From Planctomycetota bacterium (GTDB lineage Bacteria; Planctomycetota; Planctomycetia; Pirellulales; Pirellulaceae), in contig CAUJHS010000045.1 in the NCBI GenBank assembly GCA_963204915.1, positions 1-64,000 on the forward strand: a DNA stretch of 64,000 nt, in the 5' to 3' direction. The notes beneath the pieces are model-generated. The model saw only the letters and a list, made by a program, of their open reading frames with translations. It made no database searches and was not told the DNA's origin. Positions 18,383 through 49,934 of this stretch are shown here, one piece after another (positions within the stretch are counted from its first letter, which is position 1; each line of letters starts with the position of its first letter). The translations under genes were made by a program, and so were the position numbers.

Positions 18383-20278
18383 TCACACAAACACGACATG
18401 CTTCCGCAGAAACGCTTCGAGCGATTGGTAGTATTTCTCGATCGTTTCGCGCTTGCGCCAGCCGTGACCCTCGCCTTCGTAGACGTGGTATTCGTGCGGC
18501 GTGCCGCGGCGGCGGAGGGCTTCGACAATCGCGTCGGACTGGGCTTGCGGCACCACGCGGTCTTCGGCGCCTTGAAACACCGCCAGCGGCCGGACGATAT
18601 TTTCCGCATGCAGCACGGGCGAACGCTCGCGGTAAATCGCCGCGGCCTGCGGCAGCGGCCCCAACAGCGTATCGAGGTAACGGCTTTCGAACTTGTGCGT
18701 CATCGCGGCCAGATGGAACTGGTCGGCCACGCCGAACAAGCACACGCCCGCGGTGAAGACGAAGGGATGCGTAGTCATCGTTTGCAGCACCGTGAAGCCG
18801 CCCGCACTTCCGCCCATGATGACGAGCTTGTGCGGATCGGCTCGGCCCGCATCGACCAGGAATTGCGCGCCGCTGATCGAGTCTTCGACATCGCACACGC
18901 CCCAATTGCCGCGTAGGCGCAACATGTACTCTCGGCCGTAACCGGTCCCGCCGCGATAGTTGACATACAATACGCCGAAGCCGCGCGTGGCGAAGAACTG
19001 CGCTTCGGGCGACCAGCCCGCGCGAACTTGCGACGTAGGGCCGCCATGCACCATCACGATCAACGGCGGTTGGCCTTGGCTGGTGAAACGCGGGTTCGTT
19101 GGCGGGTAATACAGCCCGTGAGCCGTTTCTTCGTGGGCGGTCGTCCACGAGAGCGCTTCGCACGGCGCGAGCGCTTCGCGCGGAAGCGTTTCGGCCTCGG
19201 CTCGCGCCACGACGTGCGCGGCGTCTCTCGCGGCGTCGTACAAAATCACCCGATTCGGCAGGGAGGGCGAACTTCCGACAAACGCATAACGCTCGCCATG
19301 CAGCGAAGCGGTCAGTCCGCTGATTTTGGCGTATTCCGACAGGGCCGCTACGGTCGAGCGTTCGCCCGTATCTAAATCGATGCGCTCGATGCGCTGAAAC
19401 CCTTGTTCATTGGCTGCGGCCAGCACGCTTTTCCGGTCCGCCGAGACGGCGTAGGTGCGCTGGTCTTGCATCCACGCGGGCTCGCCGTACTCGACGCCGT
19501 CGGGCGTGAGGGCCCGATGCTCGCCCGTTTCCAAGTTATGCCGAATGAGGCGCCACCAACCGCTTTCGTCCGACACATACAGTAAGTCGTCGCCGGTGAT
19601 GAACTCGGGCTGGAAGACGGAGATTTCTTCTCCGCCCGCGATGACGCGCTCTTCTTCGAGTCGGGGCGTCCGACCCTCCATCACCACTTGGGCCAGGCAG
19701 AGTCTTGTGCCGTCCCAAGGCATGTTCGGATGATCCCACGCAATCCACGCCAAATGATCGCCAGTGGGACTCCACCGCGGTTGCATATAGAAATCGGCCC
19801 CGCTGGCAAGCACTTGCGGCCAGCGTCGGCCCTGGGTATCAACCACCACGAGCCGGTCGATTTGATCGTCGTCGTGATGCACGTAGACAATCCAGCGGCC
19901 ATCGGGCGAGACCGTGGGCGAGGCCGCTTTGCCGAACGGCGGCGAGACCGCTTCCGCGGGCCCGCCCGCAAGCGATTGCCGGAACAACCGACCGATTTTG
20001 TGCGCGACAAAATAGACGTGCCCGTGGGCGACGGTAAAGTCGCCGCCGCCGTAGCCCACTTCGGCCCGAACGCTCAACTCTTCCGTCAAGCGGCGGGGTG
20101 CGTCGCCGTCGAAATAGTCGGCCAGCAGCACGCCCCGGGCGGAGTGTCCTTCCAGCCACACGAGCGTGGGATGCGTTGTGTCAAAACGAGCGGCCTCCAA
20201 CCGCACGCCTTCCGCCAGGGCACGCGGAGAAATCGGGCTTTTCCATAAACCGAAAGGGCGCGAGATCGCGTGCGACAT
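18383..20278 (-). CDS. S9-family prolyl oligopeptidase-like peptidase
   Basis: 631 residues. N-terminal seven-bladed propeller (about 20-390, with PTVSPDGRWIVYVHH and PRWSPTGDHLAW blades), then an alpha/beta-hydrolase domain. Catalytic triad visible: Ser491 in GGSAGG, Asp573 in GAEDRVV and His605 in EGHGW. The oxyanion motif HGGPTSQVRAGW is present. No signal peptide, so probably a cytoplasmic aminoacyl- or oligopeptidase of the S9C type. The start lies three bases after the stop of the GH10-like gene, so the two are translationally coupled. Confidence 0.92.
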   Translation of the reverse strand: MSHAISRPFGLWKSPISPRALAEGVRLEAARFDTTHPTLVWLEGHSARGVLLADYFDGDAPRRLTEELSVRAEVGYGGGDFTVAHGHVYFVAHKIGRLFRQSLAGGPAEAVSPPFGKAASPTVSPDGRWIVYVHHDDDQIDRLVVVDTQGRRWPQVLASGADFYMQPRWSPTGDHLAWIAWDHPNMPWDGTRLCLAQVVMEGRTPRLEEERVIAGGEEISVFQPEFITGDDLLYVSDESGWWRLIRHNLETGEHRALTPDGVEYGEPAWMQDQRTYAVSADRKSVLAAANEQGFQRIERIDLDTGERSTVAALSEYAKISGLTASLHGERYAFVGSSPSLPNRVILYDAARDAAHVVARAEAETLPREALAPCEALSWTTAHEETAHGLYYPPTNPRFTSQGQPPLIVMVHGGPTSQVRAGWSPEAQFFATRGFGVLYVNYRGGTGYGREYMLRLRGNWGVCDVEDSISGAQFLVDAGRADPHKLVIMGGSAGGFTVLQTMTTHPFVFTAGVCLFGVADQFHLAAMTHKFESRYLDTLLGPLPQAAAIYRERSPVLHAENIVRPLAVFQGAEDRVVPQAQSDAIVEALRRRGTPHEYHVYEGEGHGWRKRETIEKYYQSLEAFLRKHVVFV

Positions 20279-42585: not shown

Positions 42586-43122
42586 TCATCGTGCGGCTCC
42601 GTGACCGACGCCCGCATGGCAATGCACGCACGACATGGCTTCGTCCGGATCGACCACAAACATTTCATGCGTCACCGTCTCATGACAGTTCACGCAGTTA
42701 TGCTGCAAAATGCGCGAGTTGCGCCGATTGATTTGAATGGGCTCGTGAAAATCTTGAAACGTAAAGGCCCAGGAATGGCGGAAGCCGTTATCCGCCTTGG
42801 CGATGTACTTGGGAATGAACTCATGCGGCAGATGGCAGTCGACACATCCCGCCACGGCATGATGACTGCTATGGGTCCACGAGTCGTACTGCGGCTGCAT
42901 GATGTGACAATTCACACACGCCCGCGGATCGGTGCTAAAGTACGACGTTCCTTCGCCGTAATCAAAGGTGAAGGCCCCCACGCCAAGCAGAGAGCCGGTG
43001 AACATGGCGGCCCATAGCCCTACGCCTCCTAGCCGGACCCACATAGCGGCATGCTCCCGAGATGAAAATCCAAAGCGACGGCCGAGCCACGCCGTGGTGC
43101 GCTCTCTGAACCAATCCAGCAA
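42586..43122 (-). CDS. nrfH: Cytochrome c nitrite reductase small subunit (tetraheme quinol dehydrogenase)
   Basis: 178 residues. NrfH takes electrons from menaquinol and passes them to NrfA. Seen: one N-terminal membrane helix (about 26-52) and four heme motifs, CVNCH (with the following IMQ methionine that ligates heme 1), CVDCH, CVNCH and CVHCH. The [20 protein letters not shown] segment between hemes 2 and 3 is the NapC/NirT-family quinol-site region. Gene order nrfH-nrfA is the usual one. Confidence 0.95.
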
Positions 43123-43317: not shown

Positions 43318-43881
43318 TTACTCCGCCGCGGACAGTTCGACCGGCATGGCGATGATCAGCCCCGCAGTGCGGTCGTGCGTGCTGGTGCGGCTGGGCACGT
43401 GGCATTTGAGACAATCGGACCCGAGCGTGATGGGCCCGGCCCGGCGATACATGCCTTGTTCCATTTGCTCGAATTCGTCGGCGCCAGCCGTGAGCGCTTT
43501 AACGGCGCCCTTTTCGAAGTCCGTTTCGGCGGTGTGATCGGCGTTCATCGCTTGGGCGTTCACCGCGATCCAACGCAGCTCGACCTTTTGCCGGTTCGCC
43601 ATTTCGCGAAACACTTTTTTCAAGGTCGAAGCCGGCAGCAACAACCCTTCGTCTTCGCGGTAATACTCATGATGCACAATTTGCAGCGTGGCGTGAACCG
43701 CTTCATGCAGCAACCGCGCTCGATGGCGCGCTTCCTCGACCGACGTCGCCGGGGTTGCTTGGGAAGCGTTTTCCTTCACGGGCTTTTCCGCCGGCGGCGC
43801 AGCACCCGCGCCGCGCACGACAAGCCCTACAACGGCGCCAAGCATCAACAGCGCAGCAACGACAACCGGGGTTCGCTTCAT
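43318..43881 (-). CDS. Exported c-heme protein with DUF3365 (Tll0287-like) domain
   Basis: 187 residues. Signal peptide of about 28 residues, then a PAS-like sensor/electron-transfer fold with a single c-type heme motif DCLKCH near residue 157. The domain is found as a free periplasmic heme protein or as a sensory domain; here it is free. AAG GAA before the ATG gives a ribosome site. It lies 195 bases upstream of nrfH on the same strand, so it may be the first gene of a three-gene nitrite reductase operon and serve as an electron carrier or sensor; that role is inference. Confidence 0.85.
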   Translation of the reverse strand: MKRTPVVVAALLMLGAVVGLVVRGAGAAPPAEKPVKENASQATPATSVEEARHRARLLHEAVHATLQIVHHEYYREDEGLLLPASTLKKVFREMANRQKVELRWIAVNAQAMNADHTAETDFEKGAVKALTAGADEFEQMEQGMYRRAGPITLGSDCLKCHVPSRTSTHDRTAGLIIAMPVELSAAE

Positions 43882-43989
43882 GAGGTTTCCTTCAGAATGG
43901 CCTAGGAAGGTGGGTTTGTTCGAAGGCGGGCCTTAACTCAGGTACGTCTTACGCAGGCAACGGCGCCGTGCGAGGCGAACAACGAATTA

Positions 43990-44003
43990 GGATCAGTTTA
44001 TCC
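43990..44003. promoter_or_regulatory. GGAT-N6-ATCC inverted repeat upstream of the nrf operon
   Basis: Candidate operator about 110 bases upstream of the DUF3365 gene. It only loosely resembles an FNR site (TTGAT-N4-ATCAA) because the central bases differ. Confidence 0.25.
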
Positions 44004-44199
44004 AATTTTACTCCGTCGCGACACCGCATGCCTAGATCATTTCACACGAGTCGCGGATGCTTTTGCAAACTGCCGCCATGAGCCGATGCACGCTAGCTTT
44101 CGGCTGGCGTGTCGGTTGGGTGAGGAAGCAAGAATCAAACGCGAGCGAGCGCCGGCTAGCGCGTAGCTCGTTGAGGTGTGCTGACCTCTTCCGTGTGGT

Positions 44200-44218
44200 C
44201 CACTCGCTCTGTGAGTGG
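44200..44218. repeat. Hairpin CCACTC-N7-GAGTGG
   Basis: A perfect six-base inverted repeat with a seven-base loop. With the GAGGT/ACCTC hairpin about 25 bases before it, it makes a locally structured stretch. No T-run follows, so it is not a classical terminator. Confidence 0.4.
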
Positions 44219-44393
44219 TTTCCGGCACTCGCGGAGCGATTGCGCCACATTGGGGGCGTCACACTTGCGTGAAACGCGCTCTAGTTCCAAGGCCCCACGA
44301 GGATCACGCGAGGCGACAACTTCCTGATCGCGCGTTGGTCGCCTCCCGTCGGGTCCGCGTTCCTCCGTAGCGCGGCCTTGCGTTATGACGATT

Positions 44394-45116
44394 TCAAACA
44401 GCGGCCAGCGAAGCTTCCAATTCAATCGCACGCGGAAACAGAATGTTGTTCTCTTTATGCACGTGAATATGCATGTTTTGTTCGAGTTCCCGCAAACCCT
44501 CGAGCATGGCCCGATACGTGTTGCACGCCTCCGCTGGCGGTTGATACTCGTGCGTCAACACGCGCATCCGGTCGAGCGCGTCGCCAGCGTGGTCGTGTTC
44601 GAACTCCATCATGCGGATCGGATTCGCCACCGTTCCAAACGGAAACGCGGGCTGGGAAGAAGCCTGCTCCAGTTGCCGTATGGCCGGAAACAAAATGCGT
44701 TCTTCCTTGAACATGTGCGGTTCAAGTTCGTTGCGCAGCGCGACGAATGTGGTTTGCACCTCGCGCAGTTCGGAGTGGTTCGCACCGTGCACCTGGGCTA
44801 CCTTGTCTACAATCGCCCCCAGGCGCGGCAACTCGGTCTTGAGGTACGCGTGATGCGTTTGTTCGATATTGTCGCACAGGGCCGCGAGGGAAGCATTGGT
44901 CCAGTCGCCCGCATCTTCCGGAACGGGCGTTTGCGCCGCTTCTTCCATCTGGCGCAGCACTTGTTCTGGATCGAGATTGCGGCCTCGACAGGCGTCCTCG
45001 AGCGCCACGCCGCCGCCGCAGCAATAGTCGATCTTGAGCGATTCAAACAACCGCGAAAGTTGCGGGTGCTGGGCGACCCATTGGCCCACGGTCGATTGTA
45101 GGTTTAAGGAATTCAT
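44394..45116 (-). CDS. ric: Iron-sulfur cluster repair di-iron protein (Ric/ScdA/YtfE family)
   Basis: 240 residues from the ATG at 45116, which follows GGAGGAG. N-terminal DUF542 domain with VGQWVAQHPQLSRLF and the CCGGG motif (DYCCGGGVALEDAC), then a hemerythrin-like four-helix bundle with the expected His/Glu iron ligands (QTHHAYLKTELP, EPHMFKEERILFPAI, EFEHDHAGDALDRM, HIHVHKENNILFP). Ric proteins repair iron-sulfur clusters damaged by nitric oxide or peroxide. Position next to nrfHA and an Rrf2 regulator fits protection against NO released during nitrite reduction. It lies 56 bases after the class V aminotransferase gene on the same strand. Confidence 0.93.
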   Translation of the reverse strand: MNSLNLQSTVGQWVAQHPQLSRLFESLKIDYCCGGGVALEDACRGRNLDPEQVLRQMEEAAQTPVPEDAGDWTNASLAALCDNIEQTHHAYLKTELPRLGAIVDKVAQVHGANHSELREVQTTFVALRNELEPHMFKEERILFPAIRQLEQASSQPAFPFGTVANPIRMMEFEHDHAGDALDRMRVLTHEYQPPAEACNTYRAMLEGLRELEQNMHIHVHKENNILFPRAIELEASLAAV

Positions 45117-45172
45117 CAACTCTCCTCCGGTAGGTAACAAAAAACGCTCCGCCTGGCGTGAGGATCCTGCGT

Positions 45173-46306
45173 TCAAGAAGACGACGCCAACGCGTCGCCC
45201 AGTTCCCGCAAGAAGGTGTTCACATCGTCTGAGGTGTTGTAACCGTGCCACGCGACACGAATGCGGCCGGCATGGTGCATCACATGAATGTTCTTGGCGC
45301 GCAAGTGTTGGTAAATTTTCTCGGTCGAAGGATGCCGAAACGCCAGAATTCCCGCGAGCGAGGCCGGATCGCGCGGCGACAGCAAATCGACGGGCATGGC
45401 CTTCAAGCCTTCCAGACATTCCTCGACCAAGGGCCGCGCGGCGCGGTCGATTTCGGCCACGCCCACATGGTGAATGTATTCCAACCCCGCGCGAATGGCG
45501 TACACGGCGGGGAAGTTCGGCATGCCCACGGTAAAGCTCGCGGCGCCCGGATGGCTGACCGCCCGCTCAAACCGATGGGCGCCAAACGCATCTTCCAGGT
45601 TGAACCAGCCGCCCGCAGGCACGGTCCATTCAGCGGCGCGCGCCGCAGGCACGCCAACCAGCCCTCCGCCATGGCTCGCCAGAATCCACTTGTGCGTGCT
45701 ACTGATGATCAAGTCCGCTCCCGACAGGTCGAGCGGAATGCGGCCCAGCGCCTGAGTCACATCAATCGCCAGCAGGGCCGAAGAATGGCGACGCACCGCC
45801 TCGACCACCTCGCGCAGCGGAAGCATAAAACCATTGAAGAAGCTGACAAGCGACACCGTGACCAGACGCGTGCGCGGAGTCAGCAACGCAATCAAATCTT
45901 CCGTCCGCAGCGCTCCCTGCTTGGCCTTCCAAAGCCGCGCTGTGGCCGGGCAGGACGGTTGCAGCCACGGCGTGGCGCCGGCGGGGAAGTCGAGATCGTT
46001 GATCACCACTTCATCCCCGTCGCGCAGCCGCAGCGCGAGCGCCGCCAGGTTATACGCTTCCGACGAACACGAACAAATGCTCACCTCGCGCGGTGTTAAA
46101 CCATAGAATGAAGCCACGAGCGCTTTGGCCGCTTCCCATTCAGCGAAGTGTCGCTCGCGACCGTCCATGCCAAGCTGCTTGTCCGCAAAATACTTCTCTA
46201 GCGCGGCGCGCACGGCCAGCGGCGGAATCCCCTCGGCCGCCGTGTTCAAATACACCATCTCCTGGAGTGAGGGGAACGACTCCCGCCGCGAAGCGTCCGT
46301 CAACAT
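45173..46306 (-). CDS. Class V aminotransferase (cysteine desulfurase-like)
   Basis: 377 residues from the ATG at 46306, with GGGAGG nine bases upstream. PLP enzyme of fold type I. Seen: VYLNTAAEGIPP at the N-terminus, SCSSEAYNLAALAL, and the PLP lysine in SSTHKWILASHGGGL. No clear catalytic Cys loop of IscS/SufS type can be identified, so cysteine desulfurase activity is uncertain; a related transaminase or lyase is possible. It precedes ric by 56 bases, which would fit supply of sulfur for cluster repair, but this is inference from position. Confidence 0.85.
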   Translation of the reverse strand: MLTDASRRESFPSLQEMVYLNTAAEGIPPLAVRAALEKYFADKQLGMDGRERHFAEWEAAKALVASFYGLTPREVSICSCSSEAYNLAALALRLRDGDEVVINDLDFPAGATPWLQPSCPATARLWKAKQGALRTEDLIALLTPRTRLVTVSLVSFFNGFMLPLREVVEAVRRHSSALLAIDVTQALGRIPLDLSGADLIISSTHKWILASHGGGLVGVPAARAAEWTVPAGGWFNLEDAFGAHRFERAVSHPGAASFTVGMPNFPAVYAIRAGLEYIHHVGVAEIDRAARPLVEECLEGLKAMPVDLLSPRDPASLAGILAFRHPSTEKIYQHLRAKNIHVMHHAGRIRVAWHGYNTSDDVNTFLRELGDALASSS

Positions 46307-46454
46307 GAACGTGCACCTCCCGCACCAAACGACAGCTTGTTTCACCGCTCCCCCGCGGGGAGCGTGTTGACGCCGCCATGTAACTTCGATTCGCATCACA
46401 CGCGACCACGACCCGCCTGCGGCGTGCGCTCGGAAGCGGTTCCACGGTGGGGCG

Positions 46455-48797
46455 CTACGGGTTGTGATTTACCCGCGTTTTCAGATGCTCGCAATTGAGC
46501 ACCTTTTCGACCAGGTCGAGCGGCCGGTAGTAGTAGTGGTTCGACGCTTCAAAACCAAGCCGCGAATCGGCCTGGCACAGCGAGAACAGCGTTTTGGCCA
46601 GTTGCACCTCGTCGTTCAATTCCTGGCGAAGTCGCGCGCGGGCGTTCTCCTGTTGCGGGGCGTTCGCGCCGGGTTCGAGCAGGGCATCGCGCGCCGCCAC
46701 GAACCGCGCTTGATTTGCAACCGACGCAAAATGAACTTGAGCCGCCTGAGCGATCCGCAACTCTGACTGGGCGTGCGACTGCCGCTCGGGCAGCGCCATT
46801 TGCACCGCCTGCCGGAGCGGCTCCAGTCCCGCGGCCCACCCGTTGGCCACCTGTTCCATCTGGTCGATAAACACCTCGGTCGGGTAGGGGCCGCGCCACC
46901 CGCGCAAATCGTCATACGGAAAACCCACCATCGTGGCGTGATACCCGGTGGGTCGTTCAAACAATAAGTTCGCCGGGCCGACTTGTTGCGGCCCGAGATA
47001 CAACAACCCGCCATGATAAGGATACTCGGCAAAGGCCCGGCTAAACGCACGCCACGCTTGCCGCGCCCACGGAGCGCCCTCGCCGTACACGTCCGAAGCG
47101 AGAGAATTTAACACCTCATCCACACTTGCCTGAGGTTGCTCGGCGAAGCGCTGGGCAATTCGCAAATTCGGCGAAGGATACCCGCCCAACGACCAGGACA
47201 GCATGGCGCCGTCGATCTTTTGCTGAGCCAAGTTCCGGCAATGCTCGGCCACCAGGTCCATGACCGGCAAATAAGGAACCGCCGACAACTCCCAGGTGTT
47301 GTTCAACTGCATTTTAGCGGCGGTCTTAAGCCCGGCTTGCTGCGCCAGCGCCCAATGCCGCGTGGCCCGCGGACCCGGCCCCACGGCGGAAATGGAATAC
47401 TCGCCAATTGCGGTTTTCACGCCGCCGCGCTCGATCGGCTTGGACCATTCGCTGACCGACATGAACCAAACATCTTTGGGCAATCGCGCGATGAAATCGG
47501 CGGCGTCGCCGTGCCCGCGCCAGCCCCAGTCCCACGCAATCACCTTGGCCTGCGGATTTCCCCGATGGACTCCTTTCGCAATCGTGGCGTTCACTTCGGC
47601 AATGATTTCATCGTCGCGGCGCGCCTTGCATCGCGGGCAGCCTTGTTGATTCCCGTGCGACGCACAGTTGGTGAAGTTTTCCGAGGCGGTAATGGTGAAC
47701 ACGCCGCCCAGGTCGGGAACTTCGGTGAAGACATGGGCGAGCGAATCTTCCAGCCATTGCCGCACCTGCGGGTTACTGGTGCACATCGCCTGCCATTCGC
47801 CTTCCACAACGCCGGCCATTTCCGGACGCTGGGCGAAAAACTCGGGCGGCATGGCGCGCGGCTCGTTCATGTACAAGTAGACCGAGATTCCCTGCCGCTT
47901 GGCGCGCGTCACCAGGTCGCGCAATGTTTCGAGGCGTCGTTCATGCCCTTCGCCAAACTCGGGAAACCGCGGGCCGCCCGGCGCCAGTTGCCGCAGCACG
48001 ACATGTAGCCACACGCCGTTGATGCCGTTGTCGGCCAGCCGCGCCAACAAGCCGTCGGGGTAGGGGTCCAGCTGTGGGTCGATCAGCGGATCGCCAAACG
48101 AACCGAAGTAGGAATAGATGTAACGCAAACCCGCCCGATTGCGCGAAGCGTCGCTCGTCGACGGGACCACATTCGGGTCGACTTGACTGAGATCTTTGAC
48201 GAACTGAAACGCGGGTTCGCCCGGTTGCGTAAGACCTTCTTCAAAGTGTGCTTCGATCAGTTGCTTGATTTCGGCAGCGCGGCGCTGCGCTGCTTCGTTC
48301 GGCTCTTGCCAGCGGACCGGTTCGCAACGGGGTTTGGCCTGCCCAAGCTTGTGGTACAGAAAGTCATCTTCCCGCAGCGCGACGGCCAGCTCCTCAGCCT
48401 CCATGTCGATCAACGTCAAAATTTGCTCATACGGAAGCAAATGCCAGTTGCGGCGCAACACGGTGATATAACCGCGCCGCCGCCACTCGGGCAACACGCG
48501 CTCGACCGGCGGAAGCCCCATCGAAGCGGCCAGCCGGCGAACGTTCGCTTCCGTGGCGCCCACCGCCTGCGCAATTCGGGCCGGCTCGACCAGTTGCCAG
48601 TTGCGCCACACCACAGCGTGCAACCGATCGGGAAAGTGTGCGAACTCGACCGGCGCCGGCTGAGCGCCCTCGGGCAGCGTGTGTTGAGCCAAAGCCGCTT
48701 CGCTCCCCCAAATGGCCAAGGCGAACAACGCGAAGATACGCCACGTTCGCGTCCTCAAGCATGCAGGCTGAGTTTTGTCGATCATGACCAGGTTCAT
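46455..48797 (-). CDS. Large exported glycosidase-like protein with HTH-like repeats
   Basis: 780 residues. Signal peptide to about residue 37 (LALAQ-type end). Two homologous helical repeats follow: VVWRNWQLVEPARIAQAVGATEANV and VLRRNWHLLPYEQILTLI, each with an RNW core; they look like helix-turn-helix modules but sit in an exported protein. The rest (about 200-700) reads as a TIM-barrel: YIYSYFGSFGDPLIDP, NGINGVWLHVVLRQL, YLYMNEPRAMPPEFF, FTITASENFTNC, and a Cys-rich CASHGNQQGCPRC that may bind zinc. Related to uncharacterised GH20-like proteins, I think; the catalytic residues are not assigned. Its ATG overlaps the stop of the 80-residue gene as ATGA, so the two are coupled. Confidence 0.6.
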   Translation of the reverse strand: MNLVMIDKTQPACLRTRTWRIFALFALAIWGSEAALAQHTLPEGAQPAPVEFAHFPDRLHAVVWRNWQLVEPARIAQAVGATEANVRRLAASMGLPPVERVLPEWRRRGYITVLRRNWHLLPYEQILTLIDMEAEELAVALREDDFLYHKLGQAKPRCEPVRWQEPNEAAQRRAAEIKQLIEAHFEEGLTQPGEPAFQFVKDLSQVDPNVVPSTSDASRNRAGLRYIYSYFGSFGDPLIDPQLDPYPDGLLARLADNGINGVWLHVVLRQLAPGGPRFPEFGEGHERRLETLRDLVTRAKRQGISVYLYMNEPRAMPPEFFAQRPEMAGVVEGEWQAMCTSNPQVRQWLEDSLAHVFTEVPDLGGVFTITASENFTNCASHGNQQGCPRCKARRDDEIIAEVNATIAKGVHRGNPQAKVIAWDWGWRGHGDAADFIARLPKDVWFMSVSEWSKPIERGGVKTAIGEYSISAVGPGPRATRHWALAQQAGLKTAAKMQLNNTWELSAVPYLPVMDLVAEHCRNLAQQKIDGAMLSWSLGGYPSPNLRIAQRFAEQPQASVDEVLNSLASDVYGEGAPWARQAWRAFSRAFAEYPYHGGLLYLGPQQVGPANLLFERPTGYHATMVGFPYDDLRGWRGPYPTEVFIDQMEQVANGWAAGLEPLRQAVQMALPERQSHAQSELRIAQAAQVHFASVANQARFVAARDALLEPGANAPQQENARARLRQELNDEVQLAKTLFSLCQADSRLGFEASNHYYYRPLDLVEKVLNCEHLKTRVNHNP

Positions 48798-49036
48798 AAC
48801 ATGCTGGGAGTGGGGTTATGCACGACCTCTTCCGGGTCGCTCGCATCGAGCGGCGTGGGCGACGCCTCCCAGCTTTGGTAACTGGCTAGCGCGCTTCCTT
48901 GCTCGAATTTGCCGGAACGTTCGCCCGTGGACGATAACGTGGCCCAACGCACATAGGCAAGCAGTTGCTGCTCGGAGCCGAACGTTGCGACGAGCTTCCG
49001 CACGCCGTCTCGCTTGTAAGCGTAAAGAAAATGCAT
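48794..49036 (-). CDS. Small conserved-looking protein of unknown function
   Basis: 80 residues. Begins MHFLYAYKRDGVRKLVATFGSE and ends in an acidic tail. Charged, no signal peptide, no membrane segment, no motif I recognise. The ATG lies two bases after the cupin stop codon, and its own TGA overlaps the next ATG, so cupin, this gene and the glycosidase-like gene form a tightly coupled trio. Tight packing and protein-like composition support it as a real gene. Confidence 0.7.
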   Translation of the reverse strand: MHFLYAYKRDGVRKLVATFGSEQQLLAYVRWATLSSTGERSGKFEQGSALASYQSWEASPTPLDASDPEEVVHNPTPSML

Positions 49037-49038
49037 GA

Positions 49039-49383
49039 CTACGCCTGCGTGGTTTTGTGTTGCAACAAGATGGTGAGTAGAACCGACGCATCTTCGATGG
49101 CGCGCACGGCGTGGGGCGTCGCGCCCGACAGGTACGTCAACTCTCCCGCAGCCAACCGCCGGTTGACGTCGCCGCAAGCCAATTCGACCACGCCTTCCAA
49201 GCATTGGAGGGTGATTTCTCCCGGCACCTGGTGCGTGGGGATCGCTTTTCCCGCCGGCGCGGCCAGGCGAATCACCTCCAAGTCATCGGTCTTGATGAGC
49301 GTTTCGGTGCGTGCTTCTTGAACGCTTCCCCCCTGCGGTTGAACCCGGACGACTTCTCCCGGTCGAGCATGCTGCAATGCCAT
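49039..49383 (-). CDS. Small cupin-domain protein
   Basis: 114 residues from the ATG at 49383, with AAGGAG seven bases upstream. A single cupin barrel: THQVPGEITLQCLEGVVEL and YLSGATPHAVRAIEDASVLLTIL. The usual metal motif 1 (HxH...E...G) is reduced to H..PGE, and motif 2 keeps the PxH, so a metal may or may not be bound. Divergent from the Rrf2 gene and first of a coupled run with the 80-residue and glycosidase-like genes; the dyad at 49454-49477 is placed to control both directions. Confidence 0.85.
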   Translation of the reverse strand: MALQHARPGEVVRVQPQGGSVQEARTETLIKTDDLEVIRLAAPAGKAIPTHQVPGEITLQCLEGVVELACGDVNRRLAAGELTYLSGATPHAVRAIEDASVLLTILLQHKTTQA

Positions 49384-49453
49384 GACGTTCTCCTTTGGCA
49401 TGAAACCGATCGGCGCTGCGCCGCCAGCAACGCGTGTCTGCTAGGTATTCTAG

Positions 49454-49477
49454 ACCTTGAAATCTATACGTCAAGGT
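49454..49477. promoter_or_regulatory. Perfect dyad ACCTTGA-N10-TCAAGGT, candidate Rrf2 operator
   Basis: Seven-base perfect inverted repeat that covers the -35 and most of the spacer of the Rrf2 promoter. Half-site spacing of 17 bases centre to centre suits a dimer. It is also 71 bases upstream of the divergent cupin start. Confidence 0.6.
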
Positions 49478-49484
49478 ATATAAT
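49457..49484 (+). promoter_or_regulatory. Promoter of the Rrf2 regulator gene
   Basis: TTGAAA (49457-49462), 16-base spacer, consensus TATAAT (49479-49484). Start predicted near 49491, so the leader is about 15 bases and carries the GAGAGGAAAA ribosome site. Confidence 0.65.
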
Positions 49485-49505
49485 TCACGCGAGAGGAAAA
49501 AAGCC

Positions 49506-49934
49506 ATGTTACCAAAAACTGCCGAATACGCCCTGCGCGCGGTTGTCTGCATGGCGTCGGACGAGCACGCCCAATCGGCCGATCATCTCGCGGCCGCAAC
49601 GCAAGTGCCACGCCGCTACTTACACAAGGTGCTGCAAGCCCTGGTGCGGGCAGGACTGGCGCGGTCCCAGCCAGGACCTCGCGGCGGCTATGCGCTCGAG
49701 CGGGCGCCGGAAGCAATTACGCTGCTTGATGTGGTAAACGCCGTAGGAGCCGTCGAGCGCATTCGCGCCTGTCCGTTGCAATTAAAAACCCACACGCGGC
49801 TTTGCCCGCTGCACCAGGAGTTAGATAACGCCTATGCGGCGGTCGAGGCGGCGTTTGCACGCGTGACCGTCGCGCAAGTGATGCGACAACCCGGTGTTCC
49901 CACTCCCTTGTGCGAAGTGGGCGGCGCGAAATAA
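49506..49934 (+). CDS. Rrf2-family transcriptional regulator (NsrR/IscR-like)
   Basis: 142 residues. Winged-helix Rrf2 domain: KTAEYALRAVVCMA, LAAATQVPRRYLHKVLQALVRAGL and GPRGGYALER. The Fe-S ligand loop has Cys89 and Cys100 (ACPLQLKTHTRLCPLH) but not the middle cysteine of the C-X5-C-X5/7-C pattern; His96 or His103 could replace it, and a further Cys136 sits near the end. So it may bind an atypical cluster or sense NO or redox by other means. Autoregulation is suggested by the dyad across its promoter. Divergent from the cupin gene and near nrfHA and ric. Confidence 0.9.
   Translation: MLPKTAEYALRAVVCMASDEHAQSADHLAAATQVPRRYLHKVLQALVRAGLARSQPGPRGGYALERAPEAITLLDVVNAVGAVERIRACPLQLKTHTRLCPLHQELDNAYAAVEAAFARVTVAQVMRQPGVPTPLCEVGGAK

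Follow-up and report, generated by a model that had tools for sequence, protein, structure and literature searches.

A putative Rrf2-controlled nitric oxide stress locus in a planctomycete genome

The window analysed here is a stretch of 64,000 nucleotides (nt) from a Planctomycetota bacterium (GenBank assembly GCA_963204915.1, contig CAUJHS010000045.1, positions 1 to 64,000), and this study concerns a regulator gene of the Rrf2 family in it, the genes that run divergently from that gene, and a candidate operator between the two. An earlier note on positions 43318-49934 had read this region as one locus for the response to nitrite and nitric oxide (NO). What stands of that proposal is a probable NO-stress core of Rrf2, a small cupin, a conserved small open reading frame (ORF79) and the protein Ric, which is smaller than claimed and leaves out the NrfHA pair and a pyridoxal phosphate (PLP) enzyme.

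Genes of the locus

Pfam and NCBIfam models bear out the DUF3365-like c-heme protein, Ric, the cupin and the divergent Rrf2 that had been reported, and the NrfHA pair is equally real, with both genes just outside that range (Table 1). Two genes had been passed over, those of ORF79 and of a protein of 780 amino acids (aa). Every gene from nrfA to the cupin lies on the minus strand in a row, and rrf2 alone is on the plus strand. The cupin gene and ORF79 are separated by 2 nt, ORF79 overlaps the gene of the 780-aa protein by 4 nt, and the PLP gene starts about 150 nt past the latter if the ATG at 46303 is used; further on, 512 nt separate ric from the DUF3365 gene and 195 nt separate the latter from nrfH. 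The 512-nt gap holds a 24-nt inverted repeat (44194-44249, 79% complementary, 8-nt loop), which is perhaps a terminator.

Table 1. Genes, candidate operators and predicted promoters of the locus, by position in the window
Feature	Position	Strand	Remarks
Rrf2-family regulator, 142 aa	49506-49934	+	PF02082 100 bits; TIGR00738 over cut-off; divergent from cupin
Candidate operator copy 1, 22-nt core	49463-49484	+	rrf2 promoter spacer and -10; matrix score 28.4, 27.3 with the window left out
Candidate operator copy 2	49447-49468	-	cupin-operon promoter, overlaps copy 1; matrix score 19.6, 19.7 with the window left out
Predicted sigma-70-like rrf2 promoter	49457-49484	+	TTGAAA-16-TATAAT, 11/12 matches
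Predicted sigma-70-like cupin-operon promoter	49447-49474	-	TTGACG-16-TAGAAT, 10/12 matches
Small cupin, 120 aa	49039-49401	-	PF07883 (Cupin_2) 28.1 over 27.2
ORF79, 80 aa	48794-49036	-	conserved small ORF, no family
780-aa protein	46455-48797	-	between ORF79 and PLP gene; no Pfam or NCBIfam match
Class-V PLP enzyme	45173-46303	-	PF00266; start uncertain (up to 46399)
Ric/YtfE/ScdA di-iron protein, 240 aa	44394-45116	-	PF04405 and PF01814 (ScdA_N and hemerythrin)
Tll0287/DUF3365-like mono-c-heme protein	43318-43881	-	PF11845 42 over 24.1; one CLKCH
NrfH	42586-43122	-	TIGR03153 164.9 over 134.2; 4 CXXCH
NrfA	40938-~42437	-	PF02335 434 bits; five CXXCH; start uncertain

On the NCBIfam model of NsrR the Rrf2 protein scores 39.6 against a cut-off of 182. 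Its effector region reads CPLxLxxHxxLCPLH, common to the aligned relatives, and the resulting cysteine pattern C-x10-C-x2-H is likewise the same in them, with two paralogues in the same genome being one residue longer. The cluster cysteines of NsrR are spaced approximately C-x5-C-x5-C, a three-cysteine pattern that the window Rrf2 lacks; in the alignment the NsrR-like Rrf2 of the same genome has three cysteines. The nearest solved structures are 6hsd and 6y45 (E 1.3e-12 and 2.4e-12), which I take to be entries of RsrR. The [2Fe-2S] ligands of RsrR are C90, C110, E8 and H33; in the window Rrf2 the glutamate is aligned and two cysteines lie in the same region, but the position of His33 is occupied by threonine and the cysteine spacing is shorter.

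Ric, scanned as a longer reading frame (44394-45419), reaches 253.6 bits on TIGR03652 against a cut-off of 204.7. The Tll0287-like assignment of the DUF3365 protein rests on both the Pfam gathering score and the c-heme motif, and the nearest solved structure to the cupin is 3fjs (E 3e-21). NrfA and NrfH carry five and four C-x-x-C-H motifs, respectively, and no CXXCK, and NrfA stays under both NCBIfam cut-offs for this protein (299.6 of 595; 222 of 692.5). Its nearest solved structure is 1fs9, presumably the Wolinella enzyme; NrfA has CLHCH where 1fs9 has CWTCK, which makes it an all-CXXCH NrfA. Judged by eye only, the 780-aa protein looks like a sugar hydrolase.

The candidate operator and its distribution

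The upstream regions of rrf2 genes share an element with the 22-nt core TCTRCAYGTCAAGGTGTAGAAT, an imperfect inverted repeat placed between a -35 TTGA and a -10 TAGAAT. I learned this element from the upstream regions of 50 rrf2 genes and derived a position weight matrix of the core from the 34 that score above 24. In the window the core is present in two overlapping copies, one in each of two divergent promoters, and these promoters are the two best of five promoter-like sites in the region, against a mean of 1.6 after shuffling. Base-shuffled loci (about 1.04 Mb) gave no operator match of at least 14, and a Markov null of 40 Mb gave 31 matches of at least 14, four of at least 17, one of at least 19 and none of at least 25. 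A genome search with the strict consensus found nothing, as the window site differs from it at 4 positions. Upstream of nrfH, the DUF3365 gene and the norB gene elsewhere in this genome, the matrix found no operator. The perfect palindrome ACCTTGA-N10-TCAAGGT was dropped as a description, for alignment with relatives shows the conserved unit to be the core given above, and a match of 15.4 inside ric (44456-44477) was taken as chance. In nine rrf2 promoters (L163, L042, L173, L183, L171, L176, L159, L181 and L039; L and G are my labels for loci and genomes) two tandem operator copies occur 26-27 bp apart, or about 2.5 helical turns.

With at most one mismatch, the pattern occurs at 19 places in 117 genomes, compared with 2 for a reversed control, and 18 of the 19 adjoin rrf2, norB, ric or the cupin gene. 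Eleven places, including that of the window, lie beside a close rrf2, while the 3-kb loci of 7 of the 18 hold no close rrf2 and instead norB (3), ric (3) or a cupin with a COX1-type oxidase (1); one of these ric places has an Rrf2 of 30% identity. As the element was trained on upstream regions of rrf2, matches at those genes are not independent of it; independent places are those with norB, ric or cupin only, the catalase place described below, and the places in f21, a held-out family of the same class with no genome in the training. All six f21 places lie beside rrf2, with hmp in five cases and with norB, together with DUF3365, in one. A sample of the phylum (294 genomes) yielded 10 places, two of them in the genome under study, against a single control match; six of the other eight are the f21 places. 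At the cupin place (L234, G029:C1:2151534) the operator stands between the cupin gene and a divergent gene for a COX1-type oxidase, which ties the cupin to respiration.

The nineteenth place is in the genome of the window itself, 178 nt before a gene for Mn-catalase (PF05067; G000:C18:17006-17025, L204 1501-1520), and scores 28.0. It is the only other copy in this genome at one mismatch or less. When up to three mismatches are allowed, 13 places are found compared with 4 for the reversed control, of which I claim only those of the window and the catalase. Neither the places of the phylum search nor the 35 ranked Rrf2 loci described below have a catalase beside them; the 117-genome places were not searched for catalase. 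The norB gene of this genome is part of a second locus (C117, L184 4680-10469), where a Tll0287-like protein and the NsrR-like three-cysteine Rrf2 are divergent from NnrS-NorB, so that NO control in this organism seems to involve two systems. A second ric (L050) has an upstream match of only 12.6, and searches of this genome with the Hcp and Hmp of relatives, which are weak searches, found nothing.

Gene order in related genomes

Relatives of the window Rrf2 at E 1e-30 are found in 114 of 196 genomes, and NorB in 48. Among the 35 best-ranked relatives, which are the unbroken ranks 1-35 after the window's own gene, NorB, Ric, Hcp or Hmp is encoded within 3 kb in 25 cases, a number that rises to 30 with a wider set to which the cupin, DUF3365 and ORF79 are added. 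By gene, the counts are NorB 11, Hmp 7, Ric 6 and Hcp 5, and for the others cupin 6, DUF3365 8, second Tll0287 type 4 and ORF79 3. Eight control genes (for NrfA, NrfH, the PLP enzyme, the 780-aa protein, a TPR protein, a DUF4440 protein, DnaE and Mn-catalase) are absent within 7 kb of all 35. An earlier set of 40 loci, which shares most loci with this one and of which the last few were taken out of rank, some with NorB already known on the contig, gave 26 of 40 for the four core NO genes and 31 of 40 for the wider set. Several contigs of relatives are short, so that absences there are weak. One example each of Hcp (Prismane) and of the flavohemoglobin Hmp (globin, FAD and NAD domains) was confirmed by Pfam. 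A protein of about 430 aa without a Pfam match (L166:5335-6657 and relatives) is found near Rrf2 in 10 of the 35 loci and is a candidate member of the regulon.

ORF79 is present in 17 of the 196 genomes, its own included, and is 54-71% identical to 16 relatives in alignment. All 25 of its loci in named genomes are from planctomycetes by their record titles, some of which (Pirellulales, Pirellulaceae) suggest the order of the carriers; these loci were found via two peptide patterns, by which more distant relatives may be missed. The protein matches no Pfam family at E 0.1, and against the sequences of solved structures its best hit has E 0.74. An AlphaFold2 model (pLDDT 81) retrieves nothing from PDB at E 0.001 with Foldseek, the best VIA match has Z 2.9 over 51 residues (root-mean-square deviation 3.3), and I assign no fold.

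At 65% identity or more to the window ORF79, NorB, Ric or a cupin occur in the fetched stretch of 8 of 11 named loci; of the 14 loci below 65%, one has DUF488 there, and NorB, Ric, Rrf2 and cupin are absent from the stretch in all. A copy of 56% identity (L082) does adjoin Rrf2, Ric and cupin. The order Rrf2 / NorB-cupin-ORF79-Ric is found in Bythopirellula polymerisocia Pla144 (NZ_SJPS01000004.1, L274) and in the metagenome-assembled genome MB_PLM_2 (L031/L270), where NorB is confirmed by PF22085 and COX1. L070/L268 show NorB-cupin-ORF79-Ric, L271 has Rrf2-NorB-ORF79, L272 has Rrf2, NorB, cupin and ORF79, and in three others (L267, L275, L277) the cupin accompanies ORF79, sometimes together with a Ric fragment or DUF488. 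Rrf2, cupin, ORF79, Ric and DUF3365 are linked in relatives as well, whereas the PLP gene is not and NrfHA only loosely so. Between B. polymerisocia and the window the identities are 65% for Rrf2, 52% for the cupin, 68% for ORF79 and 66% for Ric, and its operator scores 29.4; it differs from the window in that norB comes first and in that neither a 780-aa nor a PLP gene stands between ORF79 and ric. From these gene orders I infer that the window locus probably lost a norB that had stood first in the ancestor and acquired two genes ahead of ric. DUF488 proteins recurrently adjoin the cupin or ORF79 (L047, L275, L278, L082, L171, L176, L193), and the one of L047 belongs to the inactive-DUF488 subclade by Pfam.

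A regulatory reading and its alternatives

I consider it highly probable that the window holds the control point of a Pirellulales-like regulon against NO and nitrosative stress, in which Rrf2 acts over divergent promoters. The Rrf2 protein would be a repressor of a kind other than NsrR and would most likely carry an iron-sulfur cluster, as I conclude by analogy with RsrR as described in passages of PMC5015018. It would bind the two overlapping operators, one in the promoter of its own gene and one in that of a putative divergent operon cupin-ORF79-[780 aa]-[PLP]-ric, presumably a single transcript down to ric, and would thereby block RNA polymerase. Damage to the cluster by NO or reactive nitrogen species, or a change of its redox state, could then release Rrf2 and free both promoters, after which the cupin, ORF79 and Ric, the di-iron protein that would manage NO and nitrite damage, would be made. 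The same switch probably governs norB, ric and hmp in relatives, and hcp there as an rrf2-hcp unit; in the genome under study it may also drive the Mn-catalase.

This scheme has precedents. In the proteobacterial NsrR regulon, parts of Rodionov et al. 2005 (PMC1274295) describe how a repressor of the Rrf2 family controls hmp, hcp, norB and dnrN/ric; the window system is likewise of the Rrf2 type, and the loci of its relatives have hmp, hcp, norB and ric. However, the operator core given above differs from gATGyAT-N5-ATrCATc, the proteobacterial NsrR operator (PMC1274295); with up to three mismatches this proteobacterial consensus matches the window once, at 18596, below the chance mean of 3.71, and not near the locus. 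The cupin and ORF79 are additions relative to the NsrR regulon. The small protein family COG4309, which I take to be Pfam DUF2249, was considered for ORF79, which matches no Pfam profile at E 0.1. According to passages of PMC1274295, COG4309 is often co-transcribed with norB, and the main text of that paper contains none of the strings 'planctomyc', 'pirellul' and 'cupin'. For RsrR of Streptomyces venezuelae, the pertinent passages of PMC5015018 report two adjacent sites between its own gene and a divergent target, with a proposed block of RNA polymerase; the window also has two candidate operators in a divergent intergenic region. Parts of PMC9052748 present Ric/YtfE as a nitrite reductase with a di-iron centre that, in concert with enzymes consuming NO, relieves nitrosative stress, and its pairing with NorB or Hmp therefore makes sense. 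Among the matches listed in literature searches on planctomycete Rrf2/NsrR, NO reductase and nitrosative stress there was no paper on this system, and a search for an operon of cupin, NO reductase and hemerythrin gave one matching paper, the displayed passages of which treat HcpR in Desulfovibrio.

Rrf2-controlled NO regulons are known as such; the present one would differ in its regulator branch and operator and in having an undescribed small protein. The further proposition, at slightly less than an even chance, is that a planctomycete branch of Rrf2, with a Cys-x10-Cys-x2-His (plus Glu/His) site unlike those of NsrR and RsrR, serves as a main NO sensor and, by way of a 22-bp operator of its own, controls norB, hmp, hcp, ric and the cupin gene, in a regulon including the planctomycete-only ORF79, which would work with NO reductase or Ric. 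The locus offers a testable regulator, operator and regulon for NO defence in a phylum common where nitrogen cycles, with an unannotated small protein and a cupin named as members and with predicted NO-responsive promoters; should the alignment be right about the cluster site, a new arrangement of ligands would be added to those of Rrf2 sensors of NO or redox state.

Several observations weigh against control of NO defence by this regulator. Not every close Rrf2 has the element, as the upstream regions of 16 of the 50 rrf2 genes do not exceed a score of 24 and some fall very low, and operator copy 2 in the window scores only 19.7. At ten of the 35 ranked loci the four core NO genes are all missing within 7 kb, and at five so are the genes of the wider set; two of the eight places of the phylum search outside the genome under study show none of the query genes. 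The norB locus of this genome is without the operator, so that the link to norB is missing in this organism. RsrR, moreover, serves redox rather than NO genes in Streptomyces, and its class 1 targets point to NAD(P)H and glutamate metabolism and not to nitrosative stress, as far as passages of PMC5015018 describe them. A wider redox signal is therefore possible, with which the Mn-catalase site agrees as well. The window Rrf2 could then be a general sensor of redox or iron-sulfur status, like RsrR or IscR, that responds to oxidative or metal stress as much as to NO and has the NO enzymes as incidental targets, a view also favoured by the nearest solved relative being a redox switch and by the operator between cupin and COX1-type oxidase genes. 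However, what recurs beside the regulator from genus to genus is the classic set of NO enzymes (norB, hmp, hcp, ric), and I regard a general sensor as unlikely, at about one chance in four. That the genes came together by chance and only the rrf2-cupin promoter is functional appears very improbable: the operon could indeed be broken here, since two genes absent from the loci of relatives stand between ORF79 and ric and the PLP gene may start at the distance given above, but the cupin gene, ORF79 and the gene of the 780-aa protein are tightly packed, and in other genera the core genes are again found together.

The earlier note had taken NrfHA, DUF3365, Ric, a PLP enzyme as possible supplier of sulfur, the cupin and Rrf2 to be one co-regulated nitrite/NO unit, a reading that I find improbable, more so than that of a general sensor. 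It would account for the row of genes on one strand, and nitrite is a link that NrfHA and Ric share (passages of PMC9052748), but the two large intergenic gaps argue against it, and a role of the PLP enzyme as sulfur supplier is not borne out. The enzyme is only distantly related to the cysteine desulfurases (SufS/CsdA): it stays far under all their listed cut-offs, with 84.6 of 475.1 on TIGR01979 and 86.1 of 352.35 on TIGR01976, and its four cysteines (79, 81, 120 and 298 of the 378-aa reading) do not include one in the C-terminal catalytic loop. NrfA, NrfH, the PLP enzyme and the 780-aa protein are found at none of 21 other Ric loci (of which several have short contigs, and that of G012 was fetched only from beyond its nrfHA), as at none of the 35 Rrf2 loci. 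These proteins are not core members. DUF3365 is a recurrent neighbour of NorB and Rrf2 in relatives, and here stands beyond the large gap after ric and without operator. Co-conservation, which the earlier note had named as a check, holds for Rrf2, cupin, Ric and ORF79, and loosely for DUF3365, with norB, hcp, hmp and the shared operator; it fails for the PLP enzyme and mostly for NrfHA.

The gene nrfH occurs in 30 of the 117 genomes, at 31 places. Within about 1.5 kb on each side of 29 of the 30 other places there is no DUF3365, Ric, cupin or ORF79 and no operator of at least 14 (one scores 13.7); one of the 29 has a divergent Rrf2. A wider view of four nrfH regions, three of the 29 and one not among them, revealed no operator at nrfHA in any. 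It did reveal loose links to the other genes, which favour the co-regulated unit: in G070 nrfHA is flanked by a cupin (39%) directly past nrfA and, on the other side, by the divergent Rrf2 already counted (49%), in G024 an Rrf2 (48%) is 5.5 kb from nrfHA, and in G012 the operator with hmp-norB-ric is about 10 kb away. The region in G019 shows no such link. It may be that NrfHA belongs to a larger neighbourhood of nitrogen-oxide genes governed by another group of Rrf2, and I do not assign it to the present regulon. By eye, nitrate reductase-like napDA genes share stretches with nrfHA in G012, G024 and G070 (L300-L302), and these stretches could possibly be a nitrate/nitrite/NO island under a second type of Rrf2 without this operator.

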